Of a stretch of 5,676 bases of DNA, positions 2,695 through 5,676 are shown one piece after another. Origin of the DNA: Clostridia bacterium (GTDB lineage Bacteria > CBDUZB01 > JAGLHV01); assembly GCA_030595925.1 (NCBI GenBank), contig JAUVLC010000139.1, positions 1 through 5,676 of the forward strand, in the 5' to 3' direction. The position numbers and the translations under genes are program-made. The notes beneath the pieces were generated by a model. That model searched no databases. It worked only from the letters and a program-made list of their open reading frames with translations, and had not been told where the DNA came from. Every line of letters starts with the position of its first letter. Within the stretch, counting starts at the first letter, position 1.

Positions 2695-2709
2695 GGGGGT
2701 AAAAATTTT
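2695..2709. repeat. 15-bp core of the 34-bp repeat, internal copy
   Basis: GGGGGTAAAAATTTT is identical to 3485-3499 and differs by one base from 1706-1720. It overlaps the stop codon of the lipoprotein gene and extends into the 52-base gap before the nuclease gene. The outer parts of the long repeat are not conserved here. Confidence 0.65.
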
Positions 2710-3361
2710 AAGGTTGAAATACTACTGTCCGCTCATTTGATTTTCCGGTTTTTACAGGAAATTCACCCAATACTTCATCCATTAAATAAGGTGCAACCAC
2801 ACGAATATCGGAATTTGAACCACCACTATAGACTTCACCTTGCCAGATTACTTCAACTTTTTTTGACTTTATTAATTCACGATAATCCACAAAATAAATC
2901 TTAATATCTCTGTAGTAAGAAGTAGCTGTATATCCTCCAGTTGTATGTGGTTTGCTCTCATATTTACCTGGTGAATACTCTGTTCCGTAAACATAGGTAC
3001 TACCTATAGAACCCGTATATGTTTTGGTCTCACCAGGAACATAGTGAGGAAGGTATATAGTTGTGGGCGGAACATAGTACTGAAATGGACCACAATAAAA
3101 ACTAATAGTAATCAAAAAGTCTGGATTTTCATCGTCGTAGATATATCCTTTTTGAATAAGGCGTTCCTTAACCATAAAAAGTAATTCCTTTTCTAATAAA
3201 GGGTTTTCTTTATCGACTGGGAATAATGTAAAATGTTTAGCCTGTAAGAGTTTTTTTTCGGGGTCGGAGTAAGTTTTAACATTCATCTTAATTGTTGCAC
3301 ATGCTGTCAAAATTAAACAAGTTATACCCAGAAAAGACAAATAATAATGTTTTTTGGTCAT
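2708..3361 (-). CDS. DUF4136-like outer-envelope lipoprotein
   Basis: The 217-aa protein starts MTKKHYYLSFLGITCLILTA, then C21. This is a lipoprotein signal peptide with basic n-region, hydrophobic core and lipobox L-T-A-C, so export by Sec, lipidation at C21 and membrane anchoring are expected. The mature part follows the DUF4136 pattern: a KHFTLFPVD strand (42-50), helix LEKELLFMVKERLIQKGYI (56-74), then ENPDFLITISF (78-88). A low-complexity Tyr/Thr/Gly/Pro-rich stretch (about 89-150) interrupts the domain and may be a surface-exposed insert. The C-terminal part (151-217) has alternating strands and the VIWQGEVYSG motif. The molecular role of the family is unknown. A GAGGGAG ribosome site lies about five bases before the ATG, and a good promoter at 3420-3448 precedes it. 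The nuclease gene lies downstream. Confidence 0.8.
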   Translation of the reverse strand: MTKKHYYLSFLGITCLILTACATIKMNVKTYSDPEKKLLQAKHFTLFPVDKENPLLEKELLFMVKERLIQKGYIYDDENPDFLITISFYCGPFQYYVPPTTIYLPHYVPGETKTYTGSIGSTYVYGTEYSPGKYESKPHTTGGYTATSYYRDIKIYFVDYRELIKSKKVEVIWQGEVYSGGSNSDIRVVAPYLMDEVLGEFPVKTGKSNERTVVFQP

Positions 3362-3469: not shown

Positions 3470-3503
3470 TAATTTTGGATTGTAGGGGGTAAAAATTTTT
3501 GGG
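3470..3503. repeat. 34-bp direct repeat, right copy
   Basis: It is the partner of 1691-1724, with one mismatch in 34, about 1.78 kb apart. It begins 22 bases beyond the stop codon of the 86-aa gene and lies upstream of the lipoprotein promoter. Both full copies therefore sit at nearly the same distance from the 3' end of a minus-strand gene. Confidence 0.9.
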
Positions 3504-3525
3504 GACTAAGAGTTTTTAGAGAATT

Positions 3526-3786
3526 TTATCTTCCTATTGTAATACCGTAAAATCCACCATCGATTGGGGAAAGAATATCTGTTACATCTTTTATATTTAA
3601 ATTTAAATCATTAGCAATCTTCCAATACTCAAAGCTCTTGTCTTTTTCTTTACATTCTTCCATTTTTTTATTGAGATATTTTTCAATTTTATTGGCTATT
3701 TCAATTTTTAAATTACATCTAATTATTTTGCTTTCATCTGAACCTCTATAAATTTTTATATTTATCTTAATAGGATATTCCCTCAT
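3526..3786 (-). CDS. 86-aa protein with helix-turn-helix-like C-terminus, unknown function
   Basis: I place the start at the ATG at 3786 (MREYPIKINIKIYRGSDESK) because a GGAGG ribosome site lies five bases upstream (3792-3796). A longer frame from 3831 would add 15 residues but has no such site. Residues 1-27 look like beta strands (alternating IKINIKIYR, KIIRCNLKI). Residues 28-47 form a charged helix (NKIEKYLNKKMEECKEKDK). The tail KIANDLNLNIKDVTDILSPI with GGFYGITI resembles a small winged helix-turn-helix (helix, turn, recognition helix, wing), so DNA binding or a regulatory role is possible. It is the last gene of the three-gene unit, 72 bases after its neighbour. I recognise no named family. 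Confidence 0.7.
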   Translation of the reverse strand: MREYPIKINIKIYRGSDESKIIRCNLKIEIANKIEKYLNKKMEECKEKDKSFEYWKIANDLNLNIKDVTDILSPIDGGFYGITIGR

Positions 3787-3858: not shown

Positions 3859-4353
3859 TTACCAATGAGATTTCTTTTTTTCAGAAAGAGAATCCCAAAC
3901 TGTTTTTCCCGCGATTACAGAAGAAGCAAAAGCAGCAGTTTCCAGATTTTCTGCAGCCTTAGCGGCGACTACAGCAGAATTTTCAGCTATTTGTCGAGTT
4001 TCCTCAACACCTAATTTGATACTTTCAATATTCCTTTCAAGACGATTAAACCTTTCTTCTTTTTCAATTTCTTTCTTCTTTTTTTTCTCTTCTTCAAGGG
4101 CTTTTTGTTCTTCCGATTTTCGTTGTTTTTTAAATTCTTCAATTTCTTGTTTGTAATATTTATCAAAAACCTTTTTCAATTCCAAATTTTTTTCAAAAAA
4201 TAGGGCTAAAACTTCTTCTATTCGATCCAAAATTCTCCCGCCTTCCCAGAAAGAAACATTTTCGATAAATTTTTTTCCAATTGCAACATCACTTTTCCTA
4301 CACTCAATAGCAATCCAATTAAATAATTCTTTCTCGACATCAGTATTTATCAT
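3859..4353 (-). CDS. 164-aa coiled-coil, alanine-rich protein, unknown function
   Basis: I prefer the start at 4353 (MINTDVEKELFNWIAIECRK) because GGGGAGG precedes it by nine bases. The other in-frame ATG at 4413 gives 184 aa, has an AAGGA site five bases upstream and lies only 15 bases after the previous gene, so it stays possible. In the 164-aa numbering, residues 1-55 look globular and helical (VSFWEGGRILDRIEEVLALF). Residues 56-120 are a highly charged Lys/Glu coiled coil (QKALEEEKKKKKEIEKEERF). Residues 122-149 form an alanine-rich, fairly hydrophobic helix (ENSAVVAAKAAENLETAAFA) that could pack into a bundle or touch a membrane. The end, SEKKKSHW, is basic. There is no signal peptide. 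The coiled coil suggests it pairs with itself or with the long coiled-coil protein encoded just upstream. Confidence 0.7.
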   Translation of the reverse strand: MINTDVEKELFNWIAIECRKSDVAIGKKFIENVSFWEGGRILDRIEEVLALFFEKNLELKKVFDKYYKQEIEEFKKQRKSEEQKALEEEKKKKKEIEKEERFNRLERNIESIKLGVEETRQIAENSAVVAAKAAENLETAAFASSVIAGKTVWDSLSEKKKSHW

Positions 4354-4362
4354 TCTTTTTGT

Positions 4363-4369
4363 CCTCCCC
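4363..4369 (-). promoter_or_regulatory. Ribosome binding site GGGGAGG favouring the start at 4353
   Basis: A seven-base G-rich purine run is rare in such A/T-rich DNA. It lies nine bases before ATG 4353 and inside the extra 20 codons of the longer reading frame, which argues that those codons are leader rather than protein. Confidence 0.5.
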
Positions 4370-4428
4370 TTTTGGCTTGTAACCCTACAACTTTCATCCT
4401 TTTTAATCCTCATAAAGATCCTTATCTC

Positions 4429-5631
4429 TTAAAATTTTTCGTGCTTTGCTATTGCCTTCATACTATCAATCAATTTCGCAGCTCTTATATAACCAATTCC
4501 TAATCTTCGTTGAAGAAAAGCAGTAGACGCTTGCCCTTCATCAGCCACCAATTTAACAGCCTCTAAAAACAAGGGATCTTTTTCTGTTTCCGTTTGCAAG
4601 GTTTGTATATCTGGTTTTGTATCTTCCTTTATTGGTTCTACTATTTTTTTATTTTCGTTTAATAAAGAATTAATCCTAAGAATGTTCTTTATTTCATTAT
4701 TATCGGGTTCATTTTTAATTCTTTCTTTATACATTGAAATGATTTCTGCTTTAAATGCTTCGGTTAATATAAATTCTTTTAGATATCTTTCGCAAAACCC
4801 TCCTATTTTAAGGGGAGAAATACTGTCTACTTTTCTTTTTATTTCGGATAACCCTTTAACTGTTTTTATAGATTTAAGTTTTTCCCTTATTTCATTTAAT
4901 TGTTCTAAAACTTCCTTAAATTTTTTTATTAAAATAACACGGTTTCCCTCTATAGTCTGTTTTCGTTGTTCCATTCGTTTTTTTTCTTTCCAATGTATTT
5001 TTTCTTTCTTTTCATTCTGCTTTTTAATCCTTTCTCTCTTCGTTTTCAAAAAAAACTTACTAAATAACGAAAATTTTTCTAACTGTAAAGGTTCTATTTT
5101 CTCTTGAAATTCATAGCTAGAAATCTTCTGAATCAATTGATAAATTATTTTATAGCGTCCTTGTAAATCAATATCTGCAGATTGCTTTGTTTTTTCCACT
5201 ATATCTTGAAAGTATGCCCTCGTTTTTATATAAGAAAAAAATATATCTTTATCTCTTTTCTCTAACTCCTCTAAATCTTTTTTTAACGCAATATTAAAAT
5301 TATCAAAAATATTTTGGTTTGGTTCGTTGATAAAAATCTGGCGAAATAAGCGGTTTCTTTTTTTATAATACTCGCGATTTACTAATCGATCTTCGCCATA
5401 TGTTTCTCTAATACTAATAACACTATTTATTAATTTAAGAAATACCTCTGATTTTTCCTTAATATATTCATAAAACTCATTCAATTTATCATAATATTCT
5501 TCACTATCAACAAGATACTTTTCGAATTCTTTTAACACTTTCTCTTTATATTTCAACATATTCTGACTGTCATTTTCAAATTCTTTGCTAAAGTCACAAA
5601 TTTTATTTAAATAATCTTCAAAAAAAAACAT
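4429..5631 (-). CDS. 400-aa coiled-coil protein with C-terminal FtsK gamma domain, no motor
   Basis: The C-terminal ~49 residues (352-400) match the FtsK/SpoIIIE gamma winged helix: DPLFLEAVKLVADEGQAST, then FLQRRLGIGYIRAAKLID (372-389). In FtsK this domain reads the polar KOPS sequences and contacts XerD. The rest is not FtsK: no Walker A or B motif and no membrane segments are seen. Residues 1-195 are mostly long charged helices (KEKVLKEFEKYLVDSEEYYD), 196-226 form a strongly basic patch (KRERIKKQNEKKEKIHWKEK), and 230-330 again are helical, followed by an acidic/Thr-rich linker (331-351). An AGGAGG site sits seven bases before the ATG at 5631. It is the first visible gene of the unit and is followed 15 or 75 bases later by the next. 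A sequence-specific DNA-binding scaffold is my inference; the partner protein is unknown. Confidence 0.85.
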   Translation of the reverse strand: MFFFEDYLNKICDFSKEFENDSQNMLKYKEKVLKEFEKYLVDSEEYYDKLNEFYEYIKEKSEVFLKLINSVISIRETYGEDRLVNREYYKKRNRLFRQIFINEPNQNIFDNFNIALKKDLEELEKRDKDIFFSYIKTRAYFQDIVEKTKQSADIDLQGRYKIIYQLIQKISSYEFQEKIEPLQLEKFSLFSKFFLKTKRERIKKQNEKKEKIHWKEKKRMEQRKQTIEGNRVILIKKFKEVLEQLNEIREKLKSIKTVKGLSEIKRKVDSISPLKIGGFCERYLKEFILTEAFKAEIISMYKERIKNEPDNNEIKNILRINSLLNENKKIVEPIKEDTKPDIQTLQTETEKDPLFLEAVKLVADEGQASTAFLQRRLGIGYIRAAKLIDSMKAIAKHEKF

Positions 5632-5676
5632 AATTTAGCCTCCTTTTTTTAGAAAAACTACACCTTTATTAATATT

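Follow-up and report, generated by a model that had tools for sequence, protein, structure and literature searches.

In Escherichia coli, the gamma domain of FtsK contacts XerD through the ends of helices 2 and 3 together with their connecting loop, with R1289 as the key residue (PMC5052618), and recognition of KOPS involves R1300, E1303 and E1306 (PMC2680272). Gamma domains on proteins without the FtsK motor are already documented. The small terminase (TerS) of Bacillus phages Sam46 and Sam112 has an N-terminal FtsK_gamma (PMC8190038); as in the locus described here, gamma has moved from host FtsK onto a non-motor protein, although in the phages this is a packaging protein with a complete gamma at its N-terminus. 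A Chromobacterium phragmitis plasmid encodes a motorless protein of 399 aa with a C-terminal gamma (WP_168191987.1), again similar to our case but with a known N-terminal family (RdgC) and a complete gamma; its gene (L163:1508-2707) lies ~1.9 kb upstream of a tyrosine recombinase gene. A further precedent is XafT of the TLC satellite phage, which a citing paper describes as a phage-encoded, FtsK-independent Xer activation factor (Midonet 2019, cited in PMC9765430); XafT is a phage gene with a tested function, and we liken a possible adaptor role of our locus to it by that description, not by sequence.

Here we examine a 400-residue ORF in a 5,676-nt stretch of clostridial DNA, the whole of which we call the window. 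Like FtsK/SpoIIIE (PF09397; PDB 2ve8, 2j5o and 5dcf), its product has a homologous helix-turn-helix core with the DNA/XerD-contact loop kept, whereas it has no motor, its wing is deleted and frameshifted, and its N-terminus is unrelated. The initial annotation knew of no characterised protein of this architecture, which holds for the exact N-terminus but not for motorless gamma fusions (PMC8190038) or for Xer activators other than FtsK, such as XafT; the present case differs from the documented fusions by its N-terminus of no recognised family and its incomplete gamma.

Results

The window lies in G000, a bin totalling 2.6 Mb in 193 contigs, and was compared with a congener, G001 (JAGLHV01). 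The ftsK of G001 is ordinary, encodes 721 aa and sits between genes that, from our own reading of the sequences, we take to be uppP and lolA. The FtsK origin, motor remnant, deletion, out-of-frame wing end and coding signal are read from the sequence in the following features:

5639-5646, minus strand: Shine-Dalgarno-like AAAGGAGG, 7 bases 5' of the ATG, from sequence
4429-5631, minus strand: chimeric ORF of 400 aa, a helical N-terminus of no recognised family followed by an FtsK-derived C-terminus (ORF call, Pfam, codon use)
4672-5631, minus strand: residues 1-320, charged, with a basic stretch and heptads in residues 1-77 (codon use, composition, searches without relatives)
~4403-4666, minus strand: nucleotide similarity to the 3' end of G001 ftsK (JAGLHV010000003.1), as far as the ftsK stop (nucleotide alignment)
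4612-4656, minus strand: residues 326-340, ENKKIVEPIKEDTKP, remnant of the last FtsK motor helix (ETKQIVEFIKEGRKP in G001); 1 of 2000 shuffles scored as high
4453-4587, minus strand: FtsK gamma helix-turn-helix core, residues 349-393; FLQRRLGIGYIRAAKLIDSM is the same in G001 FtsK (Pfam, phmmer, alignment, model)
4453-4454, minus strand: approximate junction of a frameshifting deletion, 28 nt long by comparison with G001 ftsK (nucleotide alignment)
4403-4456, minus strand: remnant of the gamma wing end in the -1 frame, GNSKARKILRDKDLYED then a stop; none of 5000 shuffles and none of 5000 same-genome windows scored as high
3859-4413, minus strand: next ORF, 184 aa, starting 15 nt downstream with an 11-nt overlap with the out-of-frame ftsK remnant; no relatives found

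The ORF runs through 400 codons from an ATG at 5631 to a stop at 4429-4431. Residues 1-320 give a codon signal of 0.161 in this frame, against at most 0.001 in the other frames, and are strongly supported as coding in it. An earlier description of the region before gamma as a charged coiled coil with a basic patch is borne out in its composition, as 40% of residues 1-320 are charged and residues 186-220 form a basic stretch with a net charge of +11. The coiled coil itself is confined to residues 1-77, where the heptad excess was reached by none of 2000 shuffles, while the other stretches were at or below shuffles. The 400-aa protein contains no P-loop, and Pfam found no match in it to the RecA-like FtsK motor (PF01580). 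A search for homologues sharing the N-terminal region, as the initial annotation had proposed, came back empty: residues 1-340 had no relatives in genome contigs, in phages and plasmids (gamma matches only) or in 290 genomes, and the whole protein as query found no relative of the N-terminal part among viral contigs. Nor do residues 1-320 have a convincing similarity to FtsK. A weak PADLOC match to PDC-M35B was dismissed as compositional, and matches to PHROGs 6576 and 36563 that extend upstream to residues 246-341 were not taken as homology, as their signal should come mostly from gamma. The N-terminal part thus comes, as far as could be searched within these databases, from a gene specific to the lineage.

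The assignment of the tail to FtsK gamma on a motorless ORF, proposed at the outset, is confirmed. Pfam FtsK_gamma matches residues 350-393 with an E-value of 4.9e-16 (58.6 bits, cut-off 30.6), and every phmmer match in the PDB is an FtsK gamma entry or an FtsK or XerD-FtsK chain, reached in each case via gamma. The window gamma is closest to that of G001 FtsK (64% identity, 55 bits; the next best among 41 genomes has 37 bits). The window and G001 FtsK share the I of GYIR and an AAKLIDSM stretch, which no other aligned FtsK has, and GYIRAAKLIDSM occurs, among the aligned FtsKs, in G001 FtsK only. A model of the tail, with an FtsK alignment as input, has three confident helices (pLDDT 86-95) and no strand; its first 13 fold matches are FtsK gamma, the XerD complex 5dcf among them, a result that serves as a consistency check only and adds little alone, since the model was built on an alignment of FtsKs. 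The suggested structural check places the tail nearest to FtsK gamma; for the whole protein, a single-sequence AlphaFold prediction (pLDDT 41) was too poor for use. The three-helix helix-turn-helix core and the XerD-contact loop are both present.

The beta wing that should follow the recognition helix is mostly deleted, and its remainder is out of frame. Compared with G001 ftsK, 28 nt are absent between the recognition helix and the wing end. As this number is not divisible by three, the ORF terminates just past AIAKHEKF, and it is the -1 frame, reading GNSKARKILRDKDLYED, that clearly matches the end of the G001 FtsK wing. Through this deletion and frameshift the winged helix is incomplete in either frame. 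The Pfam match covers profile positions 2-45 of 63, and adding the out-of-frame wing end to the query raises the score from 61.2 to just 61.7 bits, from which we conclude that the deletion weighs more than the frame. The gamma signature had been annotated as continuing to residue 400 with the recognition helix included; this stands for the core, and beyond it the wing is either missing or out of frame.

The nucleotide alignment with G001 ftsK covers the last motor helix, the linker, gamma and the ftsK stop. This continuity from motor helix to stop indicates that the tail is a captured ftsK 3' end that did not arise as a separate domain. As residues 1-320 do not come from ftsK, the gene is a chimera and more than a broken ftsK; only ~4403-4666 has the character of ftsK-derived, disabled sequence expected of a pseudogene fragment. 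The concern, raised initially, that the gene might be a piece of a broken ftsK is thus justified for the tail with its motor-helix remnant and not for the remainder.

Between the tail and G001 ftsK, dS is 0.59, estimated from 41 codons, a short stretch with a wide error. It is similar to the dS of the G001/G002 ftsK pair (0.66) and of the G000/G001 topA pair (0.79), which suggests that the fragment is about as old as the species splits in the genus. The tail also has a higher dN (0.20, against 0.14 for ftsK and 0.11 for topA), with changes mostly in and around helix 1, and this is consistent with somewhat relaxed constraint.

Discussion

Our findings are best accommodated, at about even confidence, by a recent lineage-specific chimera in which the gamma tail is a passenger in decay. 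The final ~260 bases of an ftsK of this genus, most likely that of the lineage itself, would have been fused in frame to a lineage-specific gene; a 28-nt deletion would later have taken out the greater part of the wing and put the remainder out of frame. The product would be mostly helical and probably self-associating, with a gamma helix-turn-helix core at its C-terminus, and at present the tail would most likely be a decaying passenger on a protein whose activity rests on the N-terminal part. The order of these events, the oligomerisation and the loss of gamma function are what we infer. An HATPase_c_4 gene nearby is also broken, by an in-frame TAA at 405-407, and we count this in favor of decay. 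Counted against decay are the 400 codons that remain open and the XerD-contact/DNA-reading loop, in which 20 of 20 residues equal those of G001 FtsK with mostly identical codons; this perfect retention could reflect selection or merely recency. There is one known copy of the chimeric gene.

The alternative that survives best is a working adaptor, possible though unlikely in our estimate, in which gamma cores, multimerised by the N-terminal coil, dock on the host's Xer recombinase or have a weak affinity for KOPS, and so activate or titrate Xer for a mobile element. In acting on Xer for such an element it would resemble XafT, a non-FtsK Xer activator described for the TLC phage. The adaptor is favored by R375, which corresponds to the key XerD contact R1289 of E. 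coli (PMC5052618), by the whole RRLGIGYIR loop, kept as in G001 FtsK, by the confidently modelled core with FtsK gamma, 5dcf included, as its nearest folds, and by the other motorless gamma fusions that phages and plasmids carry. Furthermore, nine residues of the FtsK loop fused to XerC suffice for stimulating XerCD recombination (PMC5052618), so the loss of the wing need not abolish every gamma function. The deleted and frameshifted wing nevertheless stands against it, as does K392, a charge reversal of E. coli E1306, one of the three residues altered in a KOPS-blind mutant (PMC2680272). By alignment, the KOPS positions in the window are K386, D389 and K392, of which the first two are as in G001 and the third has the reversed charge, G001 keeping E. 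Docking on Xer is thus conceivable from the sequence and ordinary KOPS reading less so, and the suggestion that the tail might read KOPS or dif is not supported for an ftsK fragment with its wing deleted and frameshifted. Also against the adaptor, no E. coli-type dif site was found in the 5.7 kb window, though the lineage may have a dif of another type; the contig showed no recognisable integrase or phage gene, and Pfam finds an almost complete gamma in the other motorless proteins examined with it. In G000, a Xer recombinase gene lies after topA on contig C53. A fuller version strikes us as decidedly doubtful: a lineage-specific protein would have captured its own host's FtsK gamma, pared it down to the helix-turn-helix that contacts Xer, and would now present it on a multimerising coil so that the host Xer recombinase is recruited or titrated without a motor. 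A decaying passenger tail is more likely than a working adaptor because of the deletion, the broken neighbor and the lack of a second copy.

It is also rather unlikely that the tail is no copy at all but the 3' end of the genome's own disrupted ftsK, moved by rearrangement. The FtsK motor is indeed absent throughout the 2.6 Mb assembly, which is 97% complete, and the divergence from G001 ftsK resembles that of orthologues. However, uppP, lolA, rodZ and recA, which surround ftsK in G001, are also without a match in the assembly; the absence of ftsK is therefore most simply explained by an assembly gap, and the flanks of the fragment are on both sides unlike the G001 ftsK locus. The tail was accordingly compared with the ftsK of a congener, its own assembly being without ftsK and these neighbors.

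An assembly artefact, whether an ftsK fragment joined to unrelated sequence in the bin or a deletion that is a sequence error, seems very unlikely. The contig is short (5.7 kb), the bin is divided into 193 contigs and a second copy is absent, but the reading frame and codon use are maintained on both sides of the junction, a 28-nt gap is untypical of base-calling error, and a rare repeat is common to this contig and two others of the bin. The chance that the tail is an unrelated helix-turn-helix merely resembling gamma is vanishingly small in view of the Pfam E-value, the restriction of PDB sequence matches to FtsK gamma, the nucleotide similarity to ftsK and the 13 top folds, and we found no support for it, nor any Pfam profile outscoring FtsK gamma on residues 340-400, an outcome the initial annotation had named as decisive against its own reading.

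The locus offers a reasonably clear view of a regulatory domain shortly after its transfer from a housekeeping gene onto a protein unrelated to it; the gene of origin, the stretch of motor brought along and the subsequent deletion can all still be read. A second gamma match was found in 7 of the 290 genomes surveyed; the motor is absent from those of G285 (110 aa), G284 (145 aa) and G195 (367 aa), whereas those of G042 and G272 have motor sequence, so that at least 3 of the 290 cellular genomes have motorless gamma proteins, a feature that the window ORF shares. The 110-aa protein of G285 and PHROG 13700 resemble our ORF in having a C-terminal gamma without a motor, behind a short N-terminal region, and differ in their complete wing, much shorter length and dissimilar N-terminus; the genome of the 110-aa protein (L178:1103-1435, minus strand) also has a 732-aa gamma-bearing frame. 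PHROG families matching the gamma part only were found among phage families, and several phage-collection matches were dropped as motorless candidates because they were ordinary FtsK genes with motors. Rhodobacter phage RcKemmy gp60 (L161:2507-3841) has two gamma domains and a GapR-like DNA-binding domain. Gordonia phage Bowser gp53 (L162:1817-2863) has one annotation as RusA-like and another as FtsK-like, and Pfam finds in it a C-terminal gamma only. The RdgC-gamma protein has a better claim than the window ORF to being a functional gamma protein without a motor. Motorless gamma is rare in cellular genomes yet recurs on differing partners (RdgC, GapR-like, small terminase), and this recurrence makes a general test of Xer/KOPS targeting by gamma fusions worthwhile.

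Searches for tRNAs and Rfam families gave no match. Elsewhere in the window, all on the minus strand, are the HATPase_c_4 gene (3-620; RecG C-terminal-like), which is cut by the contig end, a gene for a 301-aa protein (1750-2655) with a weak Mrr-type restriction endonuclease domain and a 39% identical relative in another genome (G271), and a probable DUF4136 lipoprotein gene (2708-3361). A repeat of 70 to ~150 nt occurs at 1691-1760 and 3470-3539, with a weaker third copy at 2689-2709, and on two other contigs of G000 (C11:9354-9377 and C48:2009-2032). Its copies lie at or just past gene stop codons, in a single orientation relative to the genes in the window, and those at 1691, on C11 and on C48 contain TTGACA-N17-TATAAA; in this arrangement the repeat recalls a gene-cassette boundary.
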